A DNA stretch of 64,000 bases. Origin: an uncultured Alphaproteobacteria bacterium. Lineage in GTDB: Bacteria; Pseudomonadota; Alphaproteobacteria; JALCBB01. Where the stretch lies: positions 1,310,295 through 1,374,294 of the forward strand of contig OY279575.1 of assembly GCA_958267355.1 (NCBI GenBank), given 5' to 3'. Made by a program: the position numbers and the translations under genes. Below the pieces are notes generated by a model. That model worked only from the letters and a program-made list of their open reading frames with translations, was not told the origin of the DNA and ran no database searches. Below are positions 14,336 to 45,772 of the stretch, piece after piece (positions within the stretch are counted from its first letter, which is position 1; every line of letters starts with the position of its first letter).

Positions 14336-15355
14336 ATGGCTGGGAGCAAACAAATTCTTGTGGCTTGTCTCGTGGCTTGGCTCGTGGCTTGGTTGGGCGG
14401 CTCTAGCGGCTTTTTGCGTAGCGGCTCTTTACGCACCTGTTCTTCGCGTAGCAACTCTTTACGCAATCGCTCTTTACGCACCTGCTTAAGCTTTTGCGCG
14501 GGCGTTTTTTACCTTGGAGTTTTGTCCGTTGCTGTCCTAGCTCCAACTCCTGCGGGAGCGCAAACGGCTTTGGGGCTTTCCCAAGACAAGATCACGATCA
14601 CGACCAACTTCAGCGGCACGGACCTACTTCTATTCGGAGCCACCGAAGAAGCGGGAGACCATCTACTCGTGGAAGTCCGCGGCCCTACAAGCGAGCGGGC
14701 TTTATTTCTGCGTCAGCGTTTGGCGGGATTTTGGCTAACGACGGGCAGGCGGGTTTTTTCGTCTGTGCCGGGCTATTACGCGCTGGCTGCCAATGCGCCC
14801 TTGGCGGAAATTGCTGAGCCGCAGTTGTTGCGGCTTTTGCAGCTTGGCACGGACAATTTGGTCTTCACAAAGGCAAGCCACAGCGATGGAGCCGATGGAG
14901 CCGATGGAGCCAGTGGCACAGAAGCACCTGACACCAACACCGCGACAAACACCACGACAAACACCGCCATAAACAGCGTTACAAACAACGAAAGAGTCAT
15001 TCAGCAGACGGTTACGCCAGAAACTTTGTGGCGCAAGGCACTGGTGCGGCGTTTGCGAGCGGAAGGGCACTATCCGCCGCCTTTGCCGATTGCCTTTTCG
15101 GAAGCGCGTTTATTTCAAGTGCGTTTTCCGATACCTGCGACGGCGCGTGAAGGAATTTATGAAGTGCAGGTTCATACTTTGCGCGAAGGAGTTGTGCAGT
15201 ATTCTTCGTCTTTGCATTTTCGCGTGGAGAAAGGAGGGTTTGAAGCGGGTTTGGTTCATATGGCGTATAACGAGCCGTTTTTGTATGCTTTGCTTGGTTT
15301 GCTTTTGTCTTTGAGTCTTGGGCTGGTGGGGTATTTGCTTGGCGGACGCAGATAG
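14336..15355 (+). CDS. TIGR02186-family membrane-anchored periplasmic protein
   Basis: A 339-residue protein recognised as TIGR02186 by ITTNFSGTDLLLFGA, VEVRGPTSERALFLRQRLAGFW and SVPGYYALAAN. It has an N-terminal secretion signal and a C-terminal transmembrane helix (about 310-335), so most of it should be periplasmic. The function is unknown; the fixed link to the TauE exporter is the main clue. Two repeat-derived blocks are odd. Between two hydrophobic stretches of the signal lies an Arg/Ser/Leu run (SLRTCSSRSNSLRNRSLRTC, from 15-bp ctctttacgcacctg-like units), and mid-protein there is an Asp/Gly/Ala then Thr/Asn-rich insertion (GADGADGASG, NTATNTTTNTAIN). Start ATG 14336. Confidence 0.85.
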   Translation: MAGSKQILVACLVAWLVAWLGGSSGFLRSGSLRTCSSRSNSLRNRSLRTCLSFCAGVFYLGVLSVAVLAPTPAGAQTALGLSQDKITITTNFSGTDLLLFGATEEAGDHLLVEVRGPTSERALFLRQRLAGFWLTTGRRVFSSVPGYYALAANAPLAEIAEPQLLRLLQLGTDNLVFTKASHSDGADGADGASGTEAPDTNTATNTTTNTAINSVTNNERVIQQTVTPETLWRKALVRRLRAEGHYPPPLPIAFSEARLFQVRFPIPATAREGIYEVQVHTLREGVVQYSSSLHFRVEKGGFEAGLVHMAYNEPFLYALLGLLLSLSLGLVGYLLGGRR

Positions 15356-16084: not shown

Positions 16085-16505
16085 TCTAGCCCCTAGCCTG
16101 TACAGCCCCCATACTTGCCCCTATATCCCCCTGTAAGCCCCCTATAAGCCCTGTGTAGCCCCTGTGAAGCCTTGCCTAGCCCCTTGCTATCCCTTGCCCT
16201 ATATCCCCCCTTACATCGCCACAATCCGCCTATACGCCCCCTGTAAGCCCTATATACCCCTGTACGGCTCTGTAGCCCCATAGCCCCGTATAAGCCCTTC
16301 TAGCCCCTGTAAGCCCCCATTTCCCCCTATAGCCCTATATAAGCCCCCTGTAGCCCCTGTGAAGCCTTGTCTAGCCCTTTGCTACTCCCTTGCCCTATAT
16401 CCCCCCCTACATCGCCACAATCCGCCTATACGCCCCCTGTAAGCCCTATATAGCCACTTCTAGCCCCCGTACGGCTCTATAGCCCCATAGCCCCGTATAA
16501 GCCCC
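16085..16505. repeat. agcccc-type degenerate array with an internal ~150-bp duplication
   Basis: The first half of the gene-less stretch 16003-16886 is an array of tagcccctgtaagccccct and atagccccatagccccg words. A larger block is duplicated within it: about 16152-16296 recurs at about 16347-16503 with a few substitutions, starting tgtagcccctgtgaagcc and ending gccccgtataagccc. No gene is visible. The reverse complement matches the array near 46 kb. Confidence 0.9.
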
Positions 16506-16601
16506 TATTCCCCCCCCTAGCCCCTGTAAGCTCCTTCTAAGCTTTCTGTATAAGTCCCCTGACAGGCGAAACCGATTCGCCCCTGAGTCCTCCGCAGACA
16601 C

Positions 16602-17716: not shown

Positions 17717-18832
17717 ATGACGAGTCTTTCACTCTCTACGGGCGGACGCGGTACAGGCGGACGCGGCACGGTTGCACGGCGGCGGCGTAGTTTTTATCGG
17801 GCGTGGCGGCGGCTTCGCGCTCTAGACGGAGCGACTCTTGCGGTTTTGCTTTTGGCGGTGATTTTGCTTCTGTTGCTGGCGGTGCGCGGCATATTGGAGT
17901 CGCGTTTGCGGGCAGCGCCTTTTTTGATAACCCACTATGAGTCGGGGGCTTTGTCGCACTTTGCGCCTGTGTCGGACGCGGGGCTTTTCTACCATGGTGT
18001 GCATCTGGCGGGTTTGTCGTATTTGGGCCCTGAGCCGCCCGACACCGAAACCTTACGGGCGCGTTGGGCGGAAATTGGCTACGACCATGATGGCTTACTT
18101 GAAAGTGCTGTGGTGCCGCGCCATTTTGAACGTGATTTGCCCCGCGGACTTGAAGGCTTGAGCGGTGGCGAGCGCAAGTTATTTTTTGTCCGCTTGATTT
18201 TGCCGCTGGTCTTGGCGGTGAACGAAGAAATTACGGCGGAGCGGGAGCGACTCCTAGCGATGGACGAAGCCTTGCAAAGCGGGGCTAGGCTATCGGAAGA
18301 AGAGCAGAGTCACCTTGAGGAATTACTGCGCATCTATCGTGCGGAAACCACGACTACGAACTCACAGGCGGGCGCACAGGCAAATGTACGCGAGCAGATT
18401 GTGACTTTACTGACCAAGGTGGATGAAATCCCTGTATCCCTAGCCTTGGCACAGGCGGCGGTGGAAAGTGGCTGGGGCTCGTCGCGTTTTGCCCGTGAGG
18501 GCAACGCTTTGTTCGGCCAGCGTGGCGGAGCAAAAACGATAGCTGCGACTGACAATCCGAGTGCGCGGGTTCGTGCTTTTGCTTCCCTGAAGGAGTCGGT
18601 GCGTAGTTACGCTCACAATTTGAACAGCCACCCGAGCTATGCGGCTTTTCGCGAACAACGGACTGAAGCTCGTTCTACTGAACTTCCACTTGCGGGCTTG
18701 GACTATGTAGAAAGCTTGCGCGGCTATGCCGAAAACAAAGACTACGCGGCGATCCTACGCCACCTAATCGAAAGCAACCGCCTCCACCACTTCGAATCCA
18801 CCCGCCTCAAACCCCTAAACCAAACAGGCTAG
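17717..18832 (+). CDS. membrane-anchored glucosaminidase (Bax/FlgJ-like)
   Basis: A 371-residue putative N-acetylglucosaminidase acting on peptidoglycan in the periplasm. A single N-terminal transmembrane helix (about residues 42-62, after an Arg-rich cytoplasmic tail) anchors it. The C-terminal ~170 residues form a glucosaminidase domain: VDEIPVSLALAQAAVESGWGSSRFAREGNALFGQ, where the Glu of AVESGWG is the expected catalytic acid, and a later AFASLKESVRSYAHNLNSHPSYAAFR. The layout resembles Bax-like proteins. A Gly-rich repeat (TGGRGTGGRGT) starts the protein. It is the last gene before R-M island 1 and converges with it. Confidence 0.86.
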   Translation: MTSLSLSTGGRGTGGRGTVARRRRSFYRAWRRLRALDGATLAVLLLAVILLLLLAVRGILESRLRAAPFLITHYESGALSHFAPVSDAGLFYHGVHLAGLSYLGPEPPDTETLRARWAEIGYDHDGLLESAVVPRHFERDLPRGLEGLSGGERKLFFVRLILPLVLAVNEEITAERERLLAMDEALQSGARLSEEEQSHLEELLRIYRAETTTTNSQAGAQANVREQIVTLLTKVDEIPVSLALAQAAVESGWGSSRFAREGNALFGQRGGAKTIAATDNPSARVRAFASLKESVRSYAHNLNSHPSYAAFREQRTEARSTELPLAGLDYVESLRGYAENKDYAAILRHLIESNRLHHFESTRLKPLNQTG

Positions 18833-18854: not shown

Positions 18855-19637
18855 CTAAGCCACCCGCGCTTCGTCAGCAAGATTCTTCATAAGGTTTCGC
18901 AAATCTTTTTCACTCAAGGCATCTAAAAAGCGCGTACCACCGTGCCTGTTGATGAAGCGCGTAAATTCTAAGTACGGTGCTTTTCTGCCACTCTTTCTCT
19001 GGAAAAAATCTTTTTCACCTTCGTCATAAATATTTTCAAGCACTTTCATAATTGCAGAAAAAACTTTCGCGCTCTGCGATATGCTTGGTCGCTCTACAAT
19101 CGATTTTCTTAAATCGGTTTGATGCAGAAGAATTTCTAAAGCCTTCTCAAAATCTAAATCGTTGCACTTGCTTGCTATATGAGCTGACCACCACAAATGA
19201 GAAATTGCATTGTTTCTTTGCCACCCCCTGACTCCGCCACGAACAAAAAAGTGTCGCTGAATCAACTTTACTTTTCTATCTTCATTCCAGCTTTTCTTTC
19301 CATCAAGCCAGCGTTTTTGCGTGTACGCAAAACATGGCCCATGGGTAAGATAGACCCAAATTCGCTCATCACAGGCTTTATAGGGAGTCAGGTCAGGAAA
19401 AGACTGGTAAACAAGACGAGCGTTCTCTATATCATACTCCCCACCCACAGAAGAGCTTAAACGTTTCAGTGGATTAGGGTCATACTGAACGGATGAAAGA
19501 ATCCTTACATCTTCGTCAGGATGGAAAAATCCTGCATCCGAAGAATCAGAAAAGTACTTACCCAAATTTGCACCAACTTTGTCGTGCAAGTCGGCAACAA
19601 TTTTTTCTTTGAGAGCTTTTACTTGTTCTTGTGCCAT
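18855..19637 (-). CDS. DUF6339-like protein of R-M cassette
   Basis: A 260-residue protein that I match, with moderate certainty, to DUF6339. The reminiscent parts are LTPYKACDERIWVYLTHGPCFAYTQKRW and VRGWQRNNAISHLWWSAHIA. No catalytic motif is obvious. It is Lys/Asp/Trp-rich and soluble. I chose ATG 19637 (MAQEQVKALK) because GGGAG sits about 7 nt upstream; it then starts right after the stop of the preceding gene (ends 19639), so the four genes look like one operon. Homologues that I recall sit near cytosine methyltransferases, suggesting a restriction or regulatory role. AT-rich composition and lack of short repeats mark it as foreign relative to its flanks. Confidence 0.7.
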   Translation of the reverse strand: MAQEQVKALKEKIVADLHDKVGANLGKYFSDSSDAGFFHPDEDVRILSSVQYDPNPLKRLSSSVGGEYDIENARLVYQSFPDLTPYKACDERIWVYLTHGPCFAYTQKRWLDGKKSWNEDRKVKLIQRHFFVRGGVRGWQRNNAISHLWWSAHIASKCNDLDFEKALEILLHQTDLRKSIVERPSISQSAKVFSAIMKVLENIYDEGEKDFFQRKSGRKAPYLEFTRFINRHGGTRFLDALSEKDLRNLMKNLADEARVA

Positions 19638-19638
19638 T

Positions 19639-20499
19639 TTAATCTCCCTCAATTCGATGGAGATTCTTAATTGGCTTTTTGAGAATATTTTGCGCCATCA
19701 CAAGCGAATCCCCTTCGTGCCAATTTGGATATTTGTTTTTTAATACCTTTGCCCATCTAGTATCTTCGTAATCTTCTGAGGAATTACTTTTCAACGATAT
19801 AAGCATATGAGAAAATGCAGAAAGCACAATAGAGCTTAAGAAAGCAGAATACGGGCCCTCGCCTTGCTCCATAATTTTGCGCAGACGTTTTTCTTGCTCA
19901 AGGTTAACCCTTATGTGGATATAATCATCTTCTAAATCAACGCGAAATTCACCATCTTCTAATTCTTCATCATTCCGCCATATAAACAGAGAGGTAATGG
20001 GGCGGAAAAGATCCTTGTCAATATAAAAAGATTCTGGAGGGCGAATTGCTAAAACACTTCCACTGGAAACTGAAAAGGTATCAAAGCCAAACTCAGGATT
20101 AATTCTATCCGAATGGATTTCAATATCTTTCTTTGAGAGAATAAAACTTGAGACAAAAACATCACCTCGCAACCCTTCTGCTGGTATTTTCCACTCGCCA
20201 CCACTTTTCTTGCCATCGTCCGAGGCTTTTACCTCTAACAATTTTGAAAAGTGCGTTGCGGGACAGGTAATGTGAAGGAAATACGCCGCCGAACCTTCAG
20301 CGATTTTTTCCTTAAGTGCTACAAGAGAAGTTTGTAGAGAGTAATTTATGGCTACCTTTACCTCTTTCTCAACTTTGATTTCGGGGCGAATACTCGCCTG
20401 AAAAATAACCCCCAAGTAATCGGCATCTTCGGAAGTCTCGCCTTCCGCAAGTGGACTTAAGACTGGGTAGCCAAAAGATTTATGCGCATCGTACTGCAT
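19639..20499 (-). CDS. unrecognised protein of R-M cassette
   Basis: A 286-residue soluble, acidic protein that I do not recognise. Visible features are a beta-rich N-terminal half (VKVAINYSLQ, VFVSSFILSKKDIEIHSD), a central FDTFSVSSGSVLAIRPPESFYID segment and IWRNDEELEDGEFRVDLEDDYIHIRVN, and a more helical C-terminus. The central region could be a beta-barrel or jelly-roll core. There is no Walker, HNH or convincing PD-(D/E)xK pattern. It sits 5 bp from the GHKL ATPase and 1 bp from the DUF6339-like gene, all transcribed leftward, so it is probably an obligate partner of the ATPase. Confidence 0.75.
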   Translation of the reverse strand: MQYDAHKSFGYPVLSPLAEGETSEDADYLGVIFQASIRPEIKVEKEVKVAINYSLQTSLVALKEKIAEGSAAYFLHITCPATHFSKLLEVKASDDGKKSGGEWKIPAEGLRGDVFVSSFILSKKDIEIHSDRINPEFGFDTFSVSSGSVLAIRPPESFYIDKDLFRPITSLFIWRNDEELEDGEFRVDLEDDYIHIRVNLEQEKRLRKIMEQGEGPYSAFLSSIVLSAFSHMLISLKSNSSEDYEDTRWAKVLKNKYPNWHEGDSLVMAQNILKKPIKNLHRIEGD

Positions 20500-20504
20500 A
20501 GCTG

Positions 20505-22385
20505 TTATCCTTTGTCCACCTTTGAAAAGGCTTCAAATTTTAATCCGCCAACGATATTTCTATCTAAAGTAACTTCCACTTTTGTGCGTTTGCTTTTTTG
20601 AAGATTGACTTTCACGCCTCTTCCACCAACTTCGTGTTGAGCGGAGTCAACGACATTGAGTTCTTCATCAAGGTCGGAACCGACTTCGTATACGTACGCC
20701 TGCACACTTATATCTTCATGGGAGGTCACCCATATCGTGGCTTTTCGGGCACTCGTTTTTACGATTCGTACGTTCTTAAGCGACACCAACTTTTGTGCCA
20801 CGCCTCCAGTACCTCTCCTTCTTCTCTTTTGCTTAATTTCTATTCCTGTTCCGTCTCCATCTACCCCCACTCCATCTTCATCGTATTCGGACTCTTCGTC
20901 TTCAACAGGCTTAACACCAGTTGCAGAAATTCTAGAAGGTGGTTTAGGGTACAGTTGGAATCCACCATCTAAATTAATTTCTTCTTCTTGTCCAAATTCG
21001 CTTCCCCCTTGCTCGTCGGCAAGAAATTCTTTTAGAACATCTATATTTTCACCTTCAGAAATTTCAATTTCAGCGTGTTTCTTAACTAACTCTTTCAATT
21101 TATCGCCAAGAGATTTAAGGGCTTTCCTACCCAAATCTTTTTTCTCTTCAGTAGGCAAGATATCCCACAATAATTGATCGTGGGCAGGAGGCTCCATTGA
21201 GCGGATAAGCTTATTACCGCGTGGATTGTCACATTCAAAAACGCCGACAAAATCTCGAATGCTAGAAGGAGGAATCTTCCAGAAATTTGGAATTGCATCC
21301 GTGATGAGCATATTGTTACGGAGCAGAGCGACGCTTCGGGGCGCACCTTCTTTAACGAGAATTTTAAACCCACAGTGACCAAGATGGGTTGCGCTAAGCT
21401 GAAATTCCTCAGATTTCTCCTGTAAACATTCATAGTAATGGCTTGCCGCTTCAAATTCGTTAGAAAGCTGCTGTTTTTTCATTGAGTCAGCCACACGCTT
21501 AAGGGCGAACATTTTTCCTACATTTGCACTATCAATCGTACTTACACGCCTTTCTTTAGCTTGCTCGCTAATTCTAAGAATTAATTTGTCTCTAGCGAAG
21601 GCCGCAAAGAAATTAGAAATACTATGACCAATCAAGCTGGCAACCCAATCTTCCCCATACGGTGTCCAACCAAGAATATGAATGGTTGTGCCTATTTCTG
21701 GCTCTTCGTGTAGCCAAGCATAGCCTGAAGGGCACTGCTCATTCGTTATGGCATCGTACCCCTTGCCCCAATATCCAACCGCCTTGTAACGATTTTTATT
21801 GTCTTCGTGCGACATAAGGTTGGCTCTACCCTGAATAAGGGATTGTTCCGCGCCATTTTCGAGCCATCGTGTAGATACGACAATTGTTCTCAGCACAGTC
21901 GAGCTAAGGGGAGCAAATTTGCCTAAGCCGTGTGAGCCTGTCCGCTCGGCGGAGTCTTGAGAGTGCCCGCTGGCTTTTAGATAACTAAAAAAGGGGCTAC
22001 CAACCTCATCAGGAGGCCCCGCCATACCCCTTGTACCCCAATCCGAAACTGAAAGCACAGGAATTTCATCCGCTTCAAGGAGAGAAACAGCCCTTTTAAT
22101 CTCCTCTTTATCTTCAGGACGCTCGTTCCTATAGCTCTCTTTACATAAGCGGAAAGTTTCTTCCAATTTTTCTATGCTAGGGATTTGATCTTTTGGAATT
22201 CGGTGTTGTTTAAATTCTATTGTTACGGGAGTCTCTGAATCAGCATAGGCATCTAGGCTATTCTGAATCATCTCACGCATCATAAAACCTTGTCGATTCG
22301 CCTTAAACGAGGCAATCGCCCCGTCGTTCCAGCCCGTCCAAGAGCCGTCCCTATAGGGTTCAAAAATCCAATCAAGCGAAGACAT
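20505..22385 (-). CDS. GHKL (HATPase-fold) ATPase of R-M cassette
   Basis: A 626-residue protein with the GHKL ATP-binding fold shared by gyrase, Hsp90, MutL and MORC. From the chosen ATG at 22385 (MSSLDWIFEPY), the N-box is REMIQNSLDAY (Glu38-Asn42), the G1 box is VSDWGTRGM (Asp115) and the G2 box is GSHGLGKFAPLSS (from about residue 150). The middle part is not obviously nuclease. The C-terminal ~200 residues contain an acidic linker and a beta-rich domain. ATPases of this type are known in bacterial R-M operons and were proposed as relatives of eukaryotic MORC (work from the Aravind group). It overlaps the cytosine methyltransferase gene by 14 bp, which suggests coupled expression. Likely role: ATP-dependent sensor or effector of restriction. 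Confidence 0.85.
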   Translation of the reverse strand: MSSLDWIFEPYRDGSWTGWNDGAIASFKANRQGFMMREMIQNSLDAYADSETPVTIEFKQHRIPKDQIPSIEKLEETFRLCKESYRNERPEDKEEIKRAVSLLEADEIPVLSVSDWGTRGMAGPPDEVGSPFFSYLKASGHSQDSAERTGSHGLGKFAPLSSTVLRTIVVSTRWLENGAEQSLIQGRANLMSHEDNKNRYKAVGYWGKGYDAITNEQCPSGYAWLHEEPEIGTTIHILGWTPYGEDWVASLIGHSISNFFAAFARDKLILRISEQAKERRVSTIDSANVGKMFALKRVADSMKKQQLSNEFEAASHYYECLQEKSEEFQLSATHLGHCGFKILVKEGAPRSVALLRNNMLITDAIPNFWKIPPSSIRDFVGVFECDNPRGNKLIRSMEPPAHDQLLWDILPTEEKKDLGRKALKSLGDKLKELVKKHAEIEISEGENIDVLKEFLADEQGGSEFGQEEEINLDGGFQLYPKPPSRISATGVKPVEDEESEYDEDGVGVDGDGTGIEIKQKRRRRGTGGVAQKLVSLKNVRIVKTSARKATIWVTSHEDISVQAYVYEVGSDLDEELNVVDSAQHEVGGRGVKVNLQKSKRTKVEVTLDRNIVGGLKFEAFSKVDKG

Positions 22386-23394
22386 GCTCGTTTGACCCAA
22401 GAATTTTCTCAATTGTGGTGGCAACCTTTTCAGAAATCATCGGAGACACCGCATTACCGATGAGTCTGTATTTTGCCGTATGAGCAATATCCGCCCATCT
22501 AAAGGACGAAGAATCAAACCCCTGCAGGCTCAAGCACTCCCACTCGGTTAATTTACGAAGTCGCTCGTTATCCATAACGAAGGGTACATTGTGCCCGCCC
22601 ATACCCATATTCGCCGTCAAAGTAGGGCAGTGCCCTGGTGGTTGCAGACGCAACTGCATACGCCGCAGTTGAAACAGACGAATATCGTTATGCTGACGCA
22701 TCTCGGCAGATATTGTCTTTGTGTATCTGTTGTCTTCGGGCATATAGTAAATTTCATCCTCCTCCCCCAGTCGCAGGATATCTTCCAAGTCTATAGACTC
22801 CGTAGCAGAAGAAACTCCCGTGAAGGGGTTATAATCCATAAAATCCATATCAATTGCAACCATAAATAGTCGCTCACGACTTTGCGGAAGTCCCGCATGT
22901 TTTTTTGTGTCAATAATCACCGCATTCTCTACATTGAACCAATAGCCCAATCGCTGAATTTCAAACTGTATTCTATTGAACCACAGCCCCCCTTCGCCGT
23001 GTAGTAGAAAGGCTGAATTCTCAAAAACCAAGATTTTCGGTTTTTTCTCGCCCCAGCTTTTAATCAGGTCAACGATTTCAAAAAACAGCATTCCCCTTTC
23101 GTCTTCAAAGCCCTTGCGATTTCCCGCAGGAGAGAAGCTTTGACACGGAAAGCCCGCATGCAGAAGTGTAACTGGGTCAAGCGTTGGTTTGGACTTATTA
23201 ATTTTGCGAATATCATCCTGTACAACTTTAGTATCTGAAAAATTTTCTGCGTAGGTTGCAGTTGCATCTTTATCAATATCAACTGCCCAAGCGGTTTCAA
23301 AACCTGCTTTCTCAAACCCGAAGCAAAAGCCGCCTATTCCTGAGAATAGAGCCCCGCACGTAAGACGCTTTTTCGGTTTGCCTCCCATAGGCAC
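22372..23394 (-). CDS. C5-cytosine DNA methyltransferase
   Basis: A 340-residue Dcm-type enzyme methylating cytosine at C5 from S-adenosylmethionine. The motifs are in standard order: I ALFSGIGGFCFGFEKAG, IV GFPCQSFSPAGNRKGF with the catalytic Cys, VI FENSAFLL (the usual ENV is ENS here), VIII QSRERLFMVA, IX RKLTEWECLSLQGF and X RLIGNAVSPMI. The target-recognition region between VIII and IX (~80 residues) is short. It is the first gene of the four-gene leftward operon and presumably protects host sites. The recognition sequence cannot be read from sequence. Confidence 0.95.
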   Translation of the reverse strand: MPMGGKPKKRLTCGALFSGIGGFCFGFEKAGFETAWAVDIDKDATATYAENFSDTKVVQDDIRKINKSKPTLDPVTLLHAGFPCQSFSPAGNRKGFEDERGMLFFEIVDLIKSWGEKKPKILVFENSAFLLHGEGGLWFNRIQFEIQRLGYWFNVENAVIIDTKKHAGLPQSRERLFMVAIDMDFMDYNPFTGVSSATESIDLEDILRLGEEDEIYYMPEDNRYTKTISAEMRQHNDIRLFQLRRMQLRLQPPGHCPTLTANMGMGGHNVPFVMDNERLRKLTEWECLSLQGFDSSSFRWADIAHTAKYRLIGNAVSPMISEKVATTIEKILGSNEHVFA

Positions 23395-23436: not shown

Positions 23437-23600
23437 TTAGACGCGCTTCCGCCGTGGTTTGCGGCGGGGGATGGGGGGTTTTTTGGGGGGTGGTTTGTGT
23501 GTGGGGGAGGTGCCTGTGAGGGAAGCGTCTAGTTCTTCAAGCAGGGAGCGTTGGTTTGAAGTGAGGCGAGAGGGGATTTCTACCTTAAGTTCTATAAAAA
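23437..23600 (-). pseudogene. duplicated 3' end of dnaJ
   Basis: Positions about 23492-23597 repeat 23794-23899 inside dnaJ with an offset of 302 bp and four differences that I count over about 105 bp. The translated copy ([28 protein letters not shown]) matches the DnaJ C-terminal domain, then diverges into its own Pro/Lys/Arg tail ending at 23437. Upstream of the match the sequence is unrelated to dnaJ, so this is a fragment. It lies between the R-M operon and intact dnaJ and looks like an insertion scar: either the island brought a second dnaJ end, or the original end was displaced. Confidence 0.88.
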
Positions 23601-23723
23601 GAAAGCTCGATTTTTTGACGGAGTAGCTCGTCAAAATCTTCACCTACCGACTCTTCCATGACTTCCCCTTGAGATGAAATAGTGATTTACCGAAAATAGC
23701 AAAGGCAGTGTATGGAGTGCAAA

Positions 23724-24929
23724 TTAGGCTCGTTTTTTGCGGGGTTTGTGCAGGGATTTTTTGAGGGGTTTTTTGAGGGGTTTTTTGGTGGCGGGTTTGT
23801 GTGCGGGGGAGGTGCCTGTGAGGGAAGCGTCTAGTTCTTCAAGCAGGGCGCGTTGGCTTGAAGTGAGGCGAGAGGGGATTTCTACTTTAAGTTCTATGAA
23901 CAGATCGCCGCGCCGTGACTCTTCGCCGGCGTGGGGCATACCTTTGCCGCGCAGACGCAGCCGCGTCCCCGCCTGACTGCCCGCAGGAAGCGAGACTTCT
24001 AAGCCTTCGCCATCCACGCCAGACAAGGCCAAGCTCCCCCCCAAAGCCGCCCGCGTCATAGCGACCGACTCGCGGACCAGCAGGTCGGCTCCTGAACGTT
24101 GAAAGCGCGGATGCTCTTCTACTTGAAGCTGTAAATACAGATCGCCCGCCACTCCGCCAAGCGGAGCTGCTTCACCCTTGCCGCCCAGACGCAGTCGCAT
24201 TCCGCTTTCCACGCCAGCAGGCACGCGGACTTCAAGGTCGCGATTGCCCTCAACCCGTCCGCCGCCGTTGCACTTGCGGCACGGATTGGCAGACTTCTTG
24301 CCTGTCCCACGGCAGGCAGAGCAGGCTTGTTGTACGGCAAAAAAGCCTGAGCGGCGGGTGAGTCGTCCGCTACCGTTGCACGCACTACAGGTGGTGGGCG
24401 GTTTTTTGTCGGCGGAGCCTGTGCTGTTGCAGGTTTCGCAGGCGACGACCGAGCGAAAGCGCACGCGGCGGGCGACTCCGTGGAAGGCTTCTTCTAGGGA
24501 GATGGCGAGTCCGAGTTCCATATCGCGGCCTTTGGCTTGGCCTGTTGTGCCGCCGCGTCTGTTGCCGCCGCCGAAGAGTCCGCCGAGTCCGCCTTCGCCG
24601 AAGACTTCGTTTAGAATATCGCTGAAGTCGCCGTCAAAGCCGCTGCCTGAGAAGTTGAAGCCGCTTGGATTTGCTCCTGCGGTATTAAAGCCGCCTGCTT
24701 GCTGGGCTTGGCGGAAGGTATCGTGTCCGAAGCGGTCGTAGGCGGCGCGTTTTTCGGGGTCGCGCAAGACCGCATAGGCCTTACCCATTTCTCTGAATTT
24801 GCGTCCAGCTTCCTCGTTGCCTGGATTTTTATCGGGGTGCCAGCGCAACGCTTGTTTACGATAGGCGGCTTTGATCTCGTCAGCGGAAGCGTCACGTTTG
24901 ACACCTAGAGTTTCATAATAATCTGCCAT
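23724..24929 (-). CDS. dnaJ: chaperone DnaJ (Hsp40)
   Basis: A 401-residue type I J-protein co-chaperone that stimulates the DnaK ATPase and delivers substrates. The J domain (residues 4-69) has HPD at 31-33. A Gly/Phe-rich segment follows, with zinc-binding motifs [24 protein letters not shown] and CRKCNGGG. The first motif has Ser where Gly is usual. The C-terminal substrate domains end with an unusual basic tail (about 25 residues of [15 protein letters not shown]). The tail is where the duplicated copy upstream also diverges. It is downstream of dnaK on the same strand, separated by a hairpin. Confidence 0.97.
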
Positions 24930-25087: not shown

Positions 25088-27094
25088 TTAAAGCGCGTCT
25101 CGGGTCTCGCCCTTGGACGCATCGTTAGAGTCGGCACCATTAGAAGCACCATTGGGCGGAGTCTCGCTGAACTCGGCATCTACGGTTTCGCCGCTGGTGC
25201 CAGCGTTTGCTGTTGTGCCACTGCCATTGACTGTGTCTTCGCCACTGCTGTCGGCTTGTGCGGCTTCGGCTTGCTGGGCTTGCTCGTGGAGTGCTTGTCC
25301 GATCCGCATCATCACCTCCGACAGGGCTTGGACTTTTTCGCGCAAGATTTCTTGGCTGGCGTTTTGGTCTTTTAGCGTTGTCTCCAAGTCGGTTGCGGCG
25401 GCTTCGGCGGCGGACTTGTCTTCAGCAGAAGCAATTTTCTCTGCTTGCTCGCTCAAAGTTTTGCGGCTGGTATGGACTAAAGCTTCGGCTTCGTTGCGCA
25501 GATCGGCGAGCGAACGCCATTCGGCGTCGCGTTCGGCGTTGCGCTCGGCTTCTGCAACGAGTTTTTCTATCTCGTCTTTAGAAAGTCCGCCTGAAGACTT
25601 AATGCGGACACTTTGTTCTTTGCCTGTGGATTTATCCTTGGCGGAGACATGGACGATACCGTCTTGGTCAATATCAAAGGCGACTTCAATCTGCGGCACG
25701 CCGCGGGGTGCGGATGGAATCCCTTCTAGGTTGAATTCGCCGAGCAGTTTGTTGTCGCTGGCTTTCGGCCGCTCACCTTGAAAGACGCGGACAGTCACAG
25801 CGTGCTGGTTATCCGCCGCCGTGGAAAAAACTTGACTCTCTTGAACGGGAATCGTTGCATTGCGTTCAATTAGTCGTGTAAAGACTCCGCCGAGAGTTTC
25901 TATGCCCAACGAAAGCGGTGTTACATCTAGTAGCACGATATCTTTTCCGATATCGCCTTGCAGCACGCCAGCTTGGAACGCTGCGCCTAGGGCAACGGCT
26001 TCATCTGGATTGACACTACGGTTCGGCTCACGGCCAAAGACACGACTGACGATTTCGGACACCTTCGGCATGCGGGTCATTCCGCCGACAAGGATTACTT
26101 CCTTGATATTAGATTTGTTGACTCTTGCGTCTGCTAGGGCGCGCTCGCAGGGAGCAACTGTGCGTTCCAGCAGATCATCTACCAACGTTTCGAAAGTTGC
26201 GCGGGTGAGTTTTAGGTTTAGATGTTGCGGACCGCTTGCGTCGGCGGTGATGAAGGGCAGGTTGATTTCGGTTTCGGGTTGGTTTGAGAGTTCTATTTTG
26301 GCTTTCTCAGCGGCTTCCCTGAGACGCTGTAAGGCAATGGGGTCAGATTGCAGGTCAATTCCTTTTTCTTTCTTGAACGAGTCGGCTAGGTGTGCGACGA
26401 GTTTTTCGTCGAAGTCTTCGCCGCCTAAGAAGGTATCGCCGCTGGTGGCTTTGACTTCAAAGACTCCGTCGTCGCCGATTTCCAAAATGGAAATATCAAA
26501 GGTACCGCCGCCTAGATCATAGACAGCGATTATGCCTGACTTGTGAGCTTTTTCCATTCCATACGCGAAGGCGGCGGCGGTGGGTTCGTTGATGATGCGT
26601 TTGACTTCGAGTCCTGCGATTTTGCCGGCGTCGCGGGTGGCTTGGCGTTGTGAGTCGTTGAAGTATGCGGGGACGGTGATTACGGCTTGGGTGACTTTTT
26701 CGCCGAGGTATGATTCTGCTGACTCTTTGATTTTTTTCAGCACTTTGGCTGAGATTTCAGACGGAGACACGGCACGTCCCTTGACTTCGACCCAAGCGTC
26801 GCCGTTGTTTGCTTGGACGATCTTGTATGGGGCGTGTTCGCGGGCTTGGGTGATTTTTTTGTCGTTGGCGCGTCTGCCGATGAGTCGTTTGGCGGCGAAG
26901 ACTGTGCCGGTTGGATTGGTGACGATTTGGCGGCGTGCGGCTTGTCCGACTAGTTCGCTGTCGTCGGTGAAGGCGACGACGGAAGGTGTGGTTCGTGCGC
27001 CTTCGGTGTTTTCGATGACTTTGGGTGTTCCGCCTTCCATGAGTGCGAGGCAGGAGTTGGTGGTGCCGAGGTCAATGCCGATGATTTTAGCCAT
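25088..27094 (-). CDS. dnaK: chaperone DnaK (Hsp70)
   Basis: A 668-residue Hsp70. The N-terminal ATPase has [11 protein letters not shown], the phosphate motif [12 protein letters not shown] and [11 protein letters not shown]. The substrate domain includes [13 protein letters not shown] and [12 protein letters not shown]. The lid ends in a low-complexity Asn/Gly/Ala/Ser-rich tail (about residues 615-668) longer than usual. The usual EEVD-like end is absent, as in bacteria. It is transcribed leftward with dnaJ downstream, and a promoter-like pair lies about 100 bp upstream. Confidence 0.98.
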
Positions 27095-27194
27095 GGTGCG
27101 ATCCTGAAGATTGGGTTTTGCCTAGTGCTGCTGGGTACCGCTGGAGGGTTTGTTCGGGGAGGGATGAACAGACCCTCGCAACGGCTTCATTTGA

Positions 27195-27223
27195 TATGTA
27201 GTAAGTGGCGAGTCCTTTAACAA
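27195..27223 (-). promoter_or_regulatory. predicted dnaK promoter
   Basis: On the minus strand TTGTTA (27218-27223) and TACATA (27195-27200) are separated by 17 bp, a good sigma-70-type spacing, about 100 bp before dnaK. I see no RpoH-type CTTGAAA/CCCCAT pair and no CIRCE inverted repeat here. Confidence 0.5.
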
Positions 27224-27290
27224 GGGCTTAGGCGAGTCTTTATTAACGGGGGCTTGGGTGACTCCTTATTAACGGGGCTTGATTAGTGGG
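27205..27290. repeat. ~26-bp degenerate tandem repeat upstream of the tup genes
   Basis: Three units, gcgagtcctttaacaagggc, gcgagtctttattaacgggg and gtgactccttattaacgggg, follow each other at about 26-bp spacing. The T-rich run after it (27300-27460: tttttccctg and similar words) is low-complexity and stays open in the permease frame, but is probably untranslated leader. Confidence 0.75.
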
Positions 27291-27462
27291 CTTGGGGGGC
27301 AGAAAATTCGCCTTTTTTCTGGGCTTTTCCCTGTTTTTCCCTGTTTTTCTCTCTTTTTCCCTGTTTTTCTGGGTATTTCTCTATCTTTCGGGCTTTTTTG
27401 GGTTATCTGTGCTTTTTGGCTCTTTTTGCTCTTTGTGTTTTTTGGCTATTTTGGGCGTGGAT

Positions 27463-28179
27463 ATGGCTTCTTTCTTGGCTTCTTTTGTGGCACCTGACCT
27501 GCTGGAAATTGTTTTCTTGTCGCTCAGGGTGAGTGGCGCGGCTTTGGTTTTGGGGTGTGTTTTTGGCTTTCCGCTGGGTGCGGCTTTGGCGGCGGCTCCG
27601 TGGCGCGGGCAGGGGGTTTTGCGTTTATTGGTGGCGGTGGCGATGGGTTTGCCGCCTGTGGTGGTGGGTTTGTTTTTGTATTTGTTGTTGAATCGAGCGG
27701 GACCGCTTGGCTGGATGGCGTTGTTATATACGCCGAGTGCGATGATTGTGGCGCAGGTGATTTTGGCGACTCCGATTATTGCGGGTTTTTCGGGAGAAGT
27801 TTTTGTGCGGGTGGCGGCGGATCATCGTGATTTATTTCGTTCGTTGGGATTGACTCGTTGGCAGGTGGTTTTGACTTTGTTGTATGAGTCGCGTTTGGGT
27901 TTGGTGGCGGCGGCGACTGCGGGTTTTGGGCGGGCGATTTCTGAAGTGGGTGCGGTTTTGGTTGTGGGAGGGAATATTGCCCATGCGACGCGGATTATGA
28001 CAACAGCGATTGCCTTGGAGACTTCGCGTGGAGATTTGAATCGGGCGGTGATTTTGGGTGTGATTTTGTTGGTTTTGGCGTTGCTGGTGAATTTGTTTTT
28101 CTTGTGGTTGCGGATGCGATTGGATGATACGCCACGGGTGGGCAAGCGGCTTGGCAAGCGGGCGGGGTTTTTCTCGTGA
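27463..28179 (+). CDS. tupB: tungstate ABC transporter permease
   Basis: A 238-residue inner-membrane permease of the molybdate/tungstate type with about five to six helices. The EAA-like coupling loop reads LFRSLGLTRWQVVLTLLYESRLGLVAAATAGFGRAISEVGAVLVVGGNI. Its identity as TupB follows from similarity and the neighbouring TupA- and TupC-like genes. I chose ATG 27463 (MASFLASFVAPDLLEI), since the frame upstream is Phe/Leu-rich translation of a T-rich repeat. Its stop overlaps the ATPase start (GTGA, 4 bp). Confidence 0.85.
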   Translation: MASFLASFVAPDLLEIVFLSLRVSGAALVLGCVFGFPLGAALAAAPWRGQGVLRLLVAVAMGLPPVVVGLFLYLLLNRAGPLGWMALLYTPSAMIVAQVILATPIIAGFSGEVFVRVAADHRDLFRSLGLTRWQVVLTLLYESRLGLVAAATAGFGRAISEVGAVLVVGGNIAHATRIMTTAIALETSRGDLNRAVILGVILLVLALLVNLFFLWLRMRLDDTPRVGKRLGKRAGFFS

Positions 28180-28985
28180 GTGCAGGTATGCATGCAGGTA
28201 TAAGTGCAAGTGCGAATGCAGCTATGAGTGCAAGTTCAGCCGACAGCGGGCAGATGGTACCGCTTTTAGAGTTGCGTGAAGTTTCGCTATGGCGTGATGG
28301 CTGTGCGCTTTTGCGGGGGGTTTCGCTGACTCTTTTTGCGGGTGAGCGGGTGGTTTTACTCGGAGCCAATGGGGCGGGGAAGACTTGCTTGTTATCTGTA
28401 GCCCATGCGCTGATGAATGCGAGTGGTGGTGCAGTTTTGTGGCGTGGGCTAGAGCCGAAGCGCGAGCAACGCCACGAACAGGCTTTGGTGCCGCAGGAGT
28501 CGGTATTACTGCGGCGTTCGGCGGAAGCCAACATTCGCCATGGTTTGCTACCGCTTAAGCTTTCTGGGCGTGAAGTCAAAGAGCGGACAGCGGCGGCATT
28601 GGCGCAAGTTGGCTTGACGGGGCGGGCGCAGACGCGGGCGCAGGTTCTGTCGGGCGGAGAAAAACAGCGGCTTGTCCTAGCCCGTGCCTTGGCCCGCAAG
28701 CCTGCGCTCTTGCTCTTGGACGAGCCGACTGCCCGCCTAGACCCTAGCCACACGCAAGCGATGGAGTTAGCAATTGGCCAGGCGGCAGACCAAGGGACAG
28801 CGATATTTTTTGTCACCCACGACCCTGTGCAGGCACGCGCTTTGGCACAGCGGGTTTTGTTTCTCCATGCGGGTAGATTGCTTGCTGATTTACCTGCCGA
28901 GCAGTTTTTTGCGCAGGCGAGTCAAAGTGCTTTGCCGCGTGAAGCCTATCAGTATTTGAAATCTCGCAGTCTAACGATGGATTAA
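28176..28985 (+). CDS. tupC: tungstate ABC transporter ATP-binding protein
   Basis: A 269-residue ABC ATPase with Walker A GANGAGKT, signature LSGGEKQRL, Walker B ALLLLDEPTARLD and the H-loop VTHD. It energises tungstate import with the preceding permease. The GTG start overlaps the permease stop by 4 bp, so translation is probably coupled. The first ~25 residues (MSAGMHAGISASANAAMSASS) come from a short gtgcaagtgcgaatg-type repeat and precede the real ATPase fold (PLLELREVSLW). Confidence 0.9.
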   Translation: MSAGMHAGISASANAAMSASSADSGQMVPLLELREVSLWRDGCALLRGVSLTLFAGERVVLLGANGAGKTCLLSVAHALMNASGGAVLWRGLEPKREQRHEQALVPQESVLLRRSAEANIRHGLLPLKLSGREVKERTAAALAQVGLTGRAQTRAQVLSGGEKQRLVLARALARKPALLLLDEPTARLDPSHTQAMELAIGQAADQGTAIFFVTHDPVQARALAQRVLFLHAGRLLADLPAEQFFAQASQSALPREAYQYLKSRSLTMD

Positions 28986-28988
28986 GCT

Positions 28989-30065
28989 ATGGCGCAGTTG
29001 GTTCTATTCGTGCCGTACTACAGGAAGCTTTTCTGTGGCTTGTGGCTTGCGTTCTTAACTCTTGGCTTGAGCTTAAGCAGTTTGAGCCAAGCCACTGCCG
29101 AGACAAAACCCACGGGCGCAATAAAAACCACAAGCGAAGCAAAACCCACAGGGACAACAAAAACCACAAGCACAACAAAAACCACAGGCACAACAAAAGC
29201 CACAGAGACAACAAAAGCCACAGGCGAAACTCTGTTGGTGCAATCAACGACTTCGGTACGCAATGCAGGGCTGTACGATGCGATTCTGCCGCTCTTTGAA
29301 GCCGAGACAGGAATTCGTGTCCGCGTGGTGGCAGTTGGCACAGGACAAGCCTTACGCAACGCCGCCGATGGCAATGGTGATGTATTGATTACCCATCATC
29401 CGCCGAGCGAAGAAGCTTTTATCGCACAGGGTTATGGTGTGGCGCGTCATCCCTTTATGCAGAATGAATACCTATTAATTGGTCCTGAAAGCGATCCTGC
29501 GGCGGTGGCGACTGCTACCGACATCCGCCAAGCCTTAGCCCGCATTCAAGGGCAAGGAACAGCCCACCCGCCAGCCAGCCAAAGCCCAGACAAGCCTGCA
29601 GTGCGCTTCATCTCACGCGGAGACGATAGCGGTACCCATAAACGCGAGCGCGAGCTATGGCATAGGGTTAATGCGCCCCTGCCTGTGCCGAAGCCGCGAG
29701 ACTCTACTTGGTATCTAGAAGCAGGAGCGGGTATGGGGGCGACTCTAAATCTAGCGGCGGCTTTGGGTGCCTATACCCTGACCGACAAGGGCTCGTGGCT
29801 ATCGTTTAAGAACCGAGCGGGCTTACGGATTGTCTATGCGCAGGATCCACTTCTGAGCAATCAATACGCGGCGATTTTGATTAATCCTCTGCGCCATCCG
29901 CATATTCGCACTCAGGCGGCACGGGATTTTGTCCGCTGGCTGGTCTCCGAGCAAGGACAAGCCGCCATTGCCGCCTACAAAATTGCGGGGGAAAGACTTT
30001 TTACCCCGAACGCCGCACAATTCCCCAATAACTTGCCCCTACTGGAAGACAGCAGGCTTAAATAG
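28989..30065 (+). CDS. tupA: tungstate-binding periplasmic protein
   Basis: A 358-residue secreted solute-binding protein. A signal peptide spans about residues 1-37. The ligand-binding domain starts near residue 80 (LLVQSTTSVRNAGLYDAILPLFEAETGI) and includes FISRGDDSGTHKRE, typical of TupA/WtpA-like anion binders. Tungstate (or molybdate) would be the ligand. Residues ~40-80 are a Thr/Lys-rich linker of hexapeptides (TTKTTS, TTKATG) encoded by 18-bp repeats, absent from normal TupA. It starts 4 nt after tupC. Confidence 0.92.
   Translation: MAQLVLFVPYYRKLFCGLWLAFLTLGLSLSSLSQATAETKPTGAIKTTSEAKPTGTTKTTSTTKTTGTTKATETTKATGETLLVQSTTSVRNAGLYDAILPLFEAETGIRVRVVAVGTGQALRNAADGNGDVLITHHPPSEEAFIAQGYGVARHPFMQNEYLLIGPESDPAAVATATDIRQALARIQGQGTAHPPASQSPDKPAVRFISRGDDSGTHKRERELWHRVNAPLPVPKPRDSTWYLEAGAGMGATLNLAAALGAYTLTDKGSWLSFKNRAGLRIVYAQDPLLSNQYAAILINPLRHPHIRTQAARDFVRWLVSEQGQAAIAAYKIAGERLFTPNAAQFPNNLPLLEDSRLK
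29118..29225. repeat. 18-bp in-frame tandem repeat, 6 units, tupA linker
   Basis: Units start every 18 bp from 29118 to 29208, with consensus acaacaaaagccacaggc. They encode the Thr/Lys-rich spacer between signal peptide and binding domain. The ccacag core recurs in other arrays of the window. Confidence 0.95.
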
Positions 30066-30775
30066 CCCCTGTACCTTATTCCCTGTACCTTCTCACCCTG
30101 TGCCTTATTCCCCTGTGCCTTCTTGCCCTGTGCCTTAATTCCTTATGCCTTAATTCCTTGTGCCTTAATTCCTTGTGCCTTAATTCTCTGTGCCTTATTC
30201 CCCTGTGCCTTATTTCCCTGTGCCTTAATTCCCTGTGCCTTATTCCCCTGTGCCTTATTCCCCTGTGCCTTATTTCCCTGTGCCTTAATTCCCTGTGCCT
30301 TAATTCCCTGTGCCTTCTTGCCTCCTATGAAAGCCACAACTGCGATAGCCCCTGTGCAGGGGTATTCGTGCCAAGCCAACACACCCCTAACCCACCCGCG
30401 ACTTATTTCCCTGTGCCTTAATTTCCTGTGCCTTAATTCTCTGTGCCTTAATTTCCTGTGCCTTATTCCCCTGTGCCTTCTTACCTCATATAAAAGCCAC
30501 AACTGCGATAGCCCCTGTGCAAGGGTATTCGTGCCAAGGCAACACACCCCTAACCCACCCGCGACTTATTTCCTCGTGCCTTAATTCTCTGTGCCTTAAT
30601 TCCTTGTGCCTTAATTCCCCGTGCCTTAATTCTCTGTGCCTTAATTCCCCGTGCCTTAATTCCCCGTGCCTTAATTCTCTGTGCCTTAATTTCCTGTGCC
30701 TTAATTCTCTGTGCCTTAATTCTCTGTGCCTTAATTCTCTGTGCCTTCTTGCCCTGTGGCTTATTTCCCTGTGAA
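30066..30775. repeat. large 15-bp tandem array with two embedded ~95-bp blocks
   Basis: The gene-less stretch 30066-30874 is dominated by more than 30 units of ttaattccctgtgcc and variants (ttattcccctgtgcc, ttcttgccctgtgcc). Two near-identical non-array blocks interrupt it, at about 30316-30410 and 30479-30572, each holding gaaagccacaactgcgat-like sequence, a cccctgtgcaggg hairpin, gtattcgtgcca and ctaacccacccgcgac. Open frames across the array are artefacts of its 15-bp period. The last ~100 bp (30776-30874) are A-rich leader with AAGGAA before the next gene. Confidence 0.95.
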
Positions 30776-30874
30776 AGCCACAGCTACACAGAAACAGAGT
30801 AGAATAAACAAGCGACACAAACGCCCCGAAGCCCAAAGAGCAAAAAGCCCAAACCAGATAAGGAAACAAACCCG

Positions 30875-43242: not shown

Positions 43243-44411
43243 GGGCGGTAGTCTTTGCCAACTTCGTTATACGAACCGTCTGTCCAGCGATACCAGGTGT
43301 AGTCTTCGTCCGTACGGTCGCCTTTGTTGTTATACGCCAAAGTGCCAATAATCGTTTCAAACGAACCCGCACGTATCGCATCAGCCACATCTTCAGTGTC
43401 AAAACTGCCCGCCGCCCGTGCCGCTTCCGCCCAAACCTGAAAAGCCGCGTAGGTGTAAAGCGTAAAGCCTTCAGGCTCAAAACCTTCTGCCCGCAAACGC
43501 TCCACCAAAGCCGCCGCTTGCTTGCGCTTGCGCGGGTCAGGGCCAAAGGTGAAGATCAAACCTTCGCCCGAGTCGCCTGTAATGCTCCAGAGTTCTTCGG
43601 TGACCTGTCCGTCGCCCGAGACAAACTTTGGCTTGTATTCCTGTGCCGCCGCCTGACGGATAATCAAGCCCATTTCAGTGTGGTAGCCGCCGTAATAAAC
43701 CGCTTCCACGCCTTCGTTCTTTAGGCGGGAGACGAGAGCCGAGTAATCCACTTCGCCCGCGTTAATCGATTCGTAAAGGTGGACTGTACCCGTAACCCGC
43801 TTTTCATATGCCGCCCGAGTCTGGTCTGCCAAGCCCTTACCATACGAAGACTTGTCGTGGATGATGGCAATACGTTTCTTGCCAAACCAACGCGCCAACC
43901 AGTTGCCCGCAAATGAGCCTTGCTGGTCGTCGCGTCCGCAGGTGCGGAAAACATTGTCGTAGCCGTTTTCGGTGAGTTGGGGGGCAGTGGAAGCGGGCGT
44001 AATCTGCAAAATCCCTTCTTCCCAATAGACTTCGCTGGCGGGAATGGATGAACCCGAACAGGCGTGTCCTGCAACGAAGACGACTCCTTCGTTCACCATA
44101 CGATTTGCCACTGCCACGGCTTCTTTGGGGTCGCAACGGTCGTCGCCTTCCAGCAGGACAAGTTGCTCGCCGTTGACTCCGCCCGCGGCGTTGATGTCTT
44201 CAACGGCAATTTGGGCTCCACGGATGAAGTGTTCGCCCAGCGAAGCCAAGTCGCCGCTAAAGGGGCCTGCGACTGCGACTTTTACTTCGGCTTTTGCTGG
44301 CGCGGTGGTGAGAGTTAGGGCAAGAGTGAGTGCAAGGGTTAGTGTAAGTGCCACAGCCACGCCTGCGCGTAGGGCAGGCAAGGCTTGACGGGGGGTGCGG
44401 GTGTGCAACAT
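43239..44411 (-). CDS. branched-chain amino acid-type binding protein, copy 1
   Basis: A 390-residue periplasmic binding protein of the LivK type (type I fold). The signal peptide contains a dipeptide-like repeat (LTLTLALTLALTLT) before APAKA. Mature motifs are VAVAGPFSGDLASLGEHFIRGAQIAVEDINAAGGVNG, DDRCDPKEAVAVANRM, FRTCGRDDQQG and LYTYAAFQVWAEAARAAGSFD. It is closely related to the next gene; long identical stretches are visible. It likely feeds the LivHMGF transporter. The stop overlaps the PNPOx-like gene. Confidence 0.92.
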   Translation of the reverse strand: MLHTRTPRQALPALRAGVAVALTLTLALTLALTLTTAPAKAEVKVAVAGPFSGDLASLGEHFIRGAQIAVEDINAAGGVNGEQLVLLEGDDRCDPKEAVAVANRMVNEGVVFVAGHACSGSSIPASEVYWEEGILQITPASTAPQLTENGYDNVFRTCGRDDQQGSFAGNWLARWFGKKRIAIIHDKSSYGKGLADQTRAAYEKRVTGTVHLYESINAGEVDYSALVSRLKNEGVEAVYYGGYHTEMGLIIRQAAAQEYKPKFVSGDGQVTEELWSITGDSGEGLIFTFGPDPRKRKQAAALVERLRAEGFEPEGFTLYTYAAFQVWAEAARAAGSFDTEDVADAIRAGSFETIIGTLAYNNKGDRTDEDYTWYRWTDGSYNEVGKDYRP

Positions 44412-44520
44412 CGGCAGCTCCTTTAGTAGGGCAAGATGGGGCGAAGGTGTTGTCTGACTCTACAATTTGCCCCCAAAAGTATAAACCCCTTTTGGACAGG
44501 GGAATGGGGGTAGAGTGGGG

Positions 44521-44581
44521 GTAGAAAAGAAAAGCCCCACAGAAGCGGGTGGAGGGTTAATCCACCTGCTCCTGTGGGGCT
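44521..44581 (-). terminator. intrinsic terminator of LivK copy 2
   Basis: AGCCCCACAG (44533-44542) pairs perfectly with CTGTGGGGCT (44572-44581). After one mismatch a second 10-bp stem (44544-44553 / 44561-44570) closes a 7-nt loop. On the minus strand the stem is followed by TTTCTTTTCT, a good rho-independent terminator for the gene ending at 44663. Confidence 0.88.
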
Positions 44582-44662
44582 GATATCAAGCTCTAGGGGA
44601 AGAATGGAGCCTTAGCCCCTACTCCCGCTAGGCGGTAAAGCCGCTCGCTTCAAAGCTGGAGC

Positions 44663-45772
44663 TTACGGCTTGTAGTCAATACCGACTTCGGCGTAGTTGC
44701 CTTCGGTCCATTTGTACCAGGTGTAGTCCGCAGTCGTGCGGTCACCCTTGGAGTCAAACGATAGCGGGCCGATGACAGTGCTGAAGTTGCCACCACGCAT
44801 TGCGTCAGAGACAGCACCCGTGTCAAAGCTTCCTGCTTTGCGCGCGGACTCTGCCCAGACTTGAATCGCGGCGTAGGTGTAGAGGGTATAGCCTTCTGGC
44901 TCATAGCCTTCACTACGGAAACGCTCTACCAAGCTGGCGGCATCGGGGTTGCTACGCGGGTCAGGAGCGAAGGTGAAAAGAATTCCTTCACCCGAGTCGC
45001 CTGTGATGCTCCAGAGTTCAAGCGTGTTCTGTGCGTCTCCCGATAGGAAGACAGGCTTGTAGTTCTGGTCAGCCGATTGACGGGCAATCAAACCTAGCTC
45101 GGCGTGATAGCCGCCGAAGTACAGGGCTTCTACACCACGCGACTTTAGCTTGGTCACCAAAGCCGAGTAGTCTTGCTCGCCAGCGTTGATCGACTCGTAG
45201 AGGTCAGAAGTACCACCCGCCGCTTCAAAGTTGGCTTTGGTGAAGTCAGCAAGACCTTTACCGTAGGCAGTTTTGTCATGGACAAACGCCACTTTCTTAC
45301 TCGCAAAGTGCTTGGCAAGCCAGTTGCCCGCCACATCGCCTTGCTGGTCGTCGCGTCCGCAGGTGCGGAAAACATTGGCGTAGCCATTTTCGGTCAAGGT
45401 CGGATTGGTAGAAGCAGGCGAAATCTGCAGAACATCGTTGTCCCAATAGACTTCGCTGGCAGGAATGGATGCCGAAGAACAGAAATGTCCCGCGACAAAA
45501 GCCACATTGTCGTTCACCATCTTGTTGGCAACAGCAACGGCTTCTTTCGGGTCACAACGATCATCACCGCGAATTAAGTTGATCTGCTCGCCGTTGACTC
45601 CGCCGTTGGCGTTGATGTCAGCGACAGCGGCAATGGCTCCGCGTTCCATCTGCTCGCCAAAGGAGGCAAGGTCACCCGTCAAGGGACCGACAACAGCAAT
45701 ATCCACAGCGTGGGCTGCTGTTGGCACAGACAAGAATAAAGCGGCTCCTGCCGCTAGAAAAAACTTTTTCAT
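44663..45772 (-). CDS. branched-chain amino acid-type binding protein, copy 2
   Basis: A 369-residue LivK-type binding protein with a clean signal peptide (MKKFFLAAGAALFLSVPTAAHA). The fold motifs match copy 1: VVGPLTGDLASFGEQMERGAIAAVADINANGGVNG, DDRCDPKEAVAVANKM, FRTCGRDDQQGDVAG and LWSITGDSGEG. I chose the ATG at 45772, with GGAG 9 nt upstream. It ends at a strong terminator, so copies 1 and 2 are probably separate transcripts. Unlike copy 1 it has no repeat in the signal peptide. Confidence 0.93.
   Translation of the reverse strand: MKKFFLAAGAALFLSVPTAAHAVDIAVVGPLTGDLASFGEQMERGAIAAVADINANGGVNGEQINLIRGDDRCDPKEAVAVANKMVNDNVAFVAGHFCSSASIPASEVYWDNDVLQISPASTNPTLTENGYANVFRTCGRDDQQGDVAGNWLAKHFASKKVAFVHDKTAYGKGLADFTKANFEAAGGTSDLYESINAGEQDYSALVTKLKSRGVEALYFGGYHAELGLIARQSADQNYKPVFLSGDAQNTLELWSITGDSGEGILFTFAPDPRSNPDAASLVERFRSEGYEPEGYTLYTYAAIQVWAESARKAGSFDTGAVSDAMRGGNFSTVIGPLSFDSKGDRTTADYTWYKWTEGNYAEVGIDYKP

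Follow-up and report, generated by a model that had tools for sequence, protein, structure and literature searches.

How did a second copy of the 3′ end of dnaJ come to lie next to a putative defence cassette in an alphaproteobacterial genome? The window considered here is the whole 64,000-nt stretch of DNA that was analysed, and positions are given in its numbering unless stated otherwise. The dnaJ gene (23724 to 24929, minus strand) is an open reading frame of 401 amino acids with the J, zinc-finger, and C-terminal domains present in Pfam, and it ends in a stretch that we call tail A. A repeat search matched 131 nt of this gene (copy A, 23774 to 23904, minus strand) to 23472 to 23602, without gaps and at 92% identity. 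The first-pass annotation had reported a core match between 23492-23597 and 23794-23899 with about four differences, and had placed the second copy between dnaJ and the R-M operon in dnaJ orientation; the repeat search bears out both points. Its estimate of about 105 bp for a duplication that is real was too short, since the homology runs on to the second copy's own TAA at 23437 to 23439. Copy B (23437 to 23602, minus strand; repeat and translated searches) is thus an orphan dnaJ 3′ end with a diverged basic tail, KPPPKKPPIPRRKPRRKRV. Translated in the dnaJ frame, it corresponds to DnaJ residues 340 to 400 at 77% identity and runs for 54 residues to the stop. These data indicate that copy B is a whole dnaJ 3′ end, tail and stop codon included. 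The match has a genome-wide E value of 4e-47, which excludes chance as the origin of the repeat. The dnaJ end occurs in two places in the 1.86-Mb genome, and a search of the entire genome found no third copy. A dispersed repeat is ruled out by this count of two and by the spacer between the copies, which is unique in the genome.

The two copies differ unevenly along their length. Counted codon by codon, the core (from Ile345 to the HK ahead of the tail) carries 4 changes in 102 nt between A and B, of which one is synonymous and three are nonsynonymous, a ratio near neutral. The last 11 codons carry 14 changes in 33 nt (about 42%), half of them synonymous, and the divergence of the two segments differs (Fisher p = 3e-7). 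One tail is 15 nt longer than the other, the frame is kept, and the extreme ends of A and B align as KPRKKRA and KPRRKRV; a similarity of this order was matched by 3 of 20,000 shuffles of the tail, for an alignment placed by hand in tails that are short, of low complexity, and rich in lysine and arginine. Because the core changes are so few relative to those in the tail, the tails were probably already different before the copies met, and the near-identical core beside a sharply diverged tail makes copy B look more like the allele of a different lineage than like a duplicate that simply decayed. A and B therefore look, from their sequences, like two functional ends that diverged before meeting and that share a recently identical core. 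The suggestion that the dnaJ tail may itself be foreign is retained in part: the copies do differ mainly in their tails, and one of the two ends, which could be either, is probably foreign. The apparent sign of another lineage lies in a short lysine/arginine-rich tail. The G+C content is 66% in tail B, 47% in tail A, 42% in the spacer, and 61% in the dnaJ body, the low value of tail A coming largely from its AAA lysine codons.

Between the matched stretches of A and B lie 171 nt. On the minus strand, the spacer beyond the dnaJ stop (23603 to 23723) contains a Shine-Dalgarno-like AAGGGG followed by an ATG and a frame, MEESVGEDFDELLRQKIEL, that is cut where copy B begins (~23602), after about codon 19. 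This frame (putative gene X; 23585 to 23659, minus strand) is open for 24 codons, the last five or so of which run into copy B in a frame other than that of dnaJ. X looks like the beginning of a gene truncated by its joining to copy B; with about 19 codons to judge from, it may be a real gene or not a gene at all. It matched nothing in its own genome, in 289 genomes of the class, among the open reading frames of the compared loci, or in NCBIfam and Pfam, for a 22-residue query that makes these searches weak. No RNA element was found near the dnaJ end or in the spacer in Rfam at E values up to 1, and a promoter and terminator scan of the region gave nothing helpful above chance.

On the other side of copy B, 42 nt past its stop, is the first of four minus-strand genes (18855 to 23394), encoding a C5-cytosine DNA methyltransferase (22372 to 23394; PF00145, E = 7e-58; TIGR00675 above cutoff; PADLOC MTase_II). 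It is followed by homologues of PDC-M33A (20505 to 22424; PDLC04582, E = 4e-77), a candidate defence protein that by eye looks GHKL-ATPase-like, PDC-M33B (19639 to 20499; PDLC04583, E = 9e-32), and PDC-M33C (DUF6339; 18855 to 19652; PDLC04586, E = 2e-33; PF19866). These three adjacent genes constitute the set by which PADLOC recognizes the PDC-M33 candidate defence system, and we consider them a candidate for anti-phage defence; our literature search returned no paper naming PDC-M33 or DUF6339. The end of the cassette and the stop of a glucosaminidase-domain gene (17717 to 18832, plus strand; PF01832) are 22 nt apart; this gene forms the left border and is apparently intact to its 3′ end (44% identity to the G001 homologue over residues 4 to 366). 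With a G+C content of 43%, compared to 57% for the glucosaminidase gene and 61% for the dnaJ body, and with sharp edges, the cassette looks foreign by composition. No restriction nuclease was identified in the cassette, so the earlier label of R-M operon is a presumption.

Elsewhere, relatives of the M33A homologue are scattered, occurring in 18 of 385 genomes of the class and 16 of 277 genera, and more distant relatives are found on plasmids and on one phage-labelled contig. A related methyltransferase was present in three of the eight M33 stretches compared, two of which were read gene by gene. One stretch (L146:6946-11967) holds a methyltransferase and PDC-M33A, -B, and -C followed by a gene that by eye resembles a Vsr mismatch endonuclease. 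The set thus recurs in other Alphaproteobacteria, and the Vsr-like gene following it suggests that the methyltransferase and PDC-M33A/B/C could form a methylation-linked defence module. Repeats around the M33A genes were present in five of the eight stretches searched and absent in three.

The order of parts is thus the glucosaminidase gene, the cassette, copy B, the spacer, and dnaJ with copy A. The first-pass annotation had taken the duplication to border an island inserted at the dnaJ 3′ end, the incoming DNA supplying a replacement end. A and B are both on the right-hand side of the cassette, so the repeats are not brackets of an island. An insertion at the gene's 3′ end would be expected to leave its cargo between the copies, but the cassette is outside the pair, and the model in its literal form does not fit. 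Neither Pfam nor PADLOC matched an integrase among the four cassette genes, no repeat of at least 11 nt is common to the left and right edges of the island, and no tRNA lies near the dnaJ end, the sole tRNA of the window being 18 kb away. Our literature search found, judged by title, no relevant paper on dnaJ as an integration site.

We take the dnaJ-end duplication to be a genuine, rather tidy scar of recombination and a modest instance of a type of event that is already known. Our preferred reading, which we hold tentatively and with slightly less than even confidence, is that copy B is the scar of a horizontal acquisition in which a donor dnaJ end and the cassette entered together in a single event, homology securing one flank and an illegitimate join within X closing the other. 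The incoming DNA would have come from a related lineage and carried the donor dnaJ 3′ end, the 42 nt, and the methyltransferase/PDC-M33 cassette. Homology would have anchored one side, most simply that of the glucosaminidase gene, and at the other end the donor dnaJ fragment would have been joined illegitimately to resident X after about codon 19, just downstream of resident dnaJ. The product would be the glucosaminidase gene, the cassette, the donor dnaJ end (B), truncated X, and resident dnaJ still carrying its end (A), matching the order and orientation seen. We count for this acquisition the contrast between core and tail divergence, the in-frame end of copy B with its own stop, and the order of parts, as well as the scattered relatives of M33A, some with a related methyltransferase close by and distant ones plasmid borne. 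The gene-like start cut at copy B and the composition of the cassette count in the same direction, as do the similar orphan ends ascribed to such a process in Vibrio (PMC5361080). The near-identity of the core within otherwise diverged ends needs extra help, either sharing of the core in the recent past or gene conversion afterwards. Homology-facilitated illegitimate recombination has been described for natural transformation and, rarely, for conjugation (PMC3240628), and it is rare where measured (PMC3240628, PMC5361080). In its products, one junction falls within sequence homologous between donor and recipient, and the other links unrelated sequences, usually at the cost of resident DNA.

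The same final order is predicted by two events instead of one. In that case the cassette would first have come to lie beside a dnaJ gene ending in tail B, and DNA comprising core, tail A, and X would later have recombined within the dnaJ core, giving dnaJ its present end and leaving B behind, with most of the insert, the remainder of X and what followed it, subsequently lost. Cassette and duplication are separate events here, and of the readings that work this one comes closest to the earlier insertion model. Tiny as it is, the insert does have A on one side and B on the other, which an insertion at a 3′ end demands, and the high identity of the core suits a crossover there. The G+C content of tail A and the spacer, below that of the dnaJ body and tail B, leans weakly the same way, but the AAA lysine codons account for much of the low value in tail A. 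The scheme also requires that DNA was subsequently deleted up to the start of B, and no integrase or element genes are left. We regard this order of events as rather unlikely, yet the likeliest of the alternatives to a single acquisition.

A purely local origin would have the dnaJ end duplicated within this genome, the start of X inserted or present by chance, and the tails drifting by slippage in a low-complexity stretch. To its credit, the near-neutral core changes are what such drift would give, and local repeats are many: 400 kb drawn evenly from the genome contained 15 further pairs that were at least 80 nt long and at least 80% identical, a count in which overlapping pairs of one array were scored separately. 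Nearly all of these, however, are short-period tandem, within one open reading frame, or multicopy. Across the 400-kb sample and the window, only one other separate, low-copy pair lies outside a single open reading frame, so a duplicated housekeeping-gene end is unusual in this genome. Uniform drift would not yield 4% divergence in the core and about 42% in the tail, nor would a dead copy be expected to keep its frame, its basic residues, and its stop. A local duplication is, in our view, unlikely.

The other separate pair is beside a tRNA-Leu gene: its 213-nt copies (L160:14895-15559; 91.5% identity) start at the 3′ end of the tRNA (14816 to 14901) and may mark an insertion there. The window itself contains further repeats. 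Between a UspA-like gene and NifU is an imperfect tandem repeat of about 200 bp (16110 to 16534; 83%) with TAGCCCC/TAAGCCCC-like units. A long low-complexity array of short units lies downstream of tupA (30066 to 30785) and has an inverted relative near the window start (818 to 956). Two adjacent stretches of about 950 nt (43248 to 45619) are 69% identical and, by their sequences, are probably tandem paralogous genes.

Two dnaJ ends that resemble alleles could also come from an assembly error joining two strain variants. Such a mis-join would have fused internal points of X and dnaJ, two genes with no evident sequence in common, and the genome is one contig; we consider an error of this kind quite improbable. 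Last, an integrase-bearing mobile island that brought the cassette by site-specific entry at the dnaJ 3′ end would account for the cassette's distinct composition and its position next to a gene's 3′ end, but the order of parts contradicts it, barring a later rearrangement that moved the cassette, and together with the missing integrase match and the missing repeat at the opposite edge makes it very improbable; an integrase/att island as such is rejected on the order of parts and the missing integrase.

Set against the proposed acquisition is the outcome of the comparison with relatives. A scan of 84,980 species found no near relative (best DnaJ, about 46% identity), and neither a donor, a cassette-free site, nor a one-copy relative was found in that scan, in the order (one other genome), or, using an exact piece of the core, among viral contigs. 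The DnaJ of the sole other genome of the order is 47% identical. In that sister genome (L120:4-5958), dnaJ is convergent with tungstate-type (tup) ABC genes, which in the window lie beyond dnaK (25088 to 30065); the dnaJ-dnaK and tup blocks are thus swapped in order and unchanged in orientation. The sister glucosaminidase gene sits at a contig edge. Two contig ends of that genome, the end of L120 and the start of L144, both finish near a common motif, GGCATTAGTG.GA.TTTGACTAAGACATTC, which may be a repeat that breaks the assembly there.

If the acquisition took place as proposed, the junction kept at dnaJ helps explain how a defence cassette could enter a small alphaproteobacterial genome without an integrase. 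The locus also counsels caution, in that finding a gene end duplicated next to an island does not alone establish integrase-driven insertion. Were dnaJ tails to swap between lineages, a core chaperone would be exchanging its C-terminal tail together with defence genes. A bolder extension, which we think very doubtful, is that defence cassettes in this lineage land repeatedly at the downstream edge of dnaJ and travel with a dnaJ tail that serves as a short homology anchor and restores an intact chaperone end, with no integrase.

Several known systems leave comparable traces. Islands mobilized by tyrosine recombinases integrate at the 3′ ends of genes and supply a replacement end. The locus likewise combines a replaced end of a gene with a displaced remnant, but no integrase is present here and the cassette lies outside the pair of ends. 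R-M genes inserted with a long target duplication (Nobusato 2000, cited in PMC3031569) are similar in that methyltransferase genes reportedly lie by a duplicated host stretch of about 100 bp or more with no transposase. In those insertions the duplications flank the insert, whereas A and B sit together on one side of the cassette and have different tails; with no left-edge repeat of at least 11 nt, an R-M insertion with flanking target duplication was rejected. The closest likeness is to orphan 3′ ends in Vibrio T6SS and Rhs loci, which have been proposed to be products of homology-facilitated illegitimate recombination (PMC5361080). In both settings, an orphan homologous 3′ end lies beside acquired genes, with no integrase and, putatively in the case of dnaJ, with one clean and one illegitimate-looking junction. 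The present case differs from the Vibrio scars in the genes concerned, dnaJ being a chaperone gene and its neighbour a methyltransferase/defence cassette, and in coming from a single genome.
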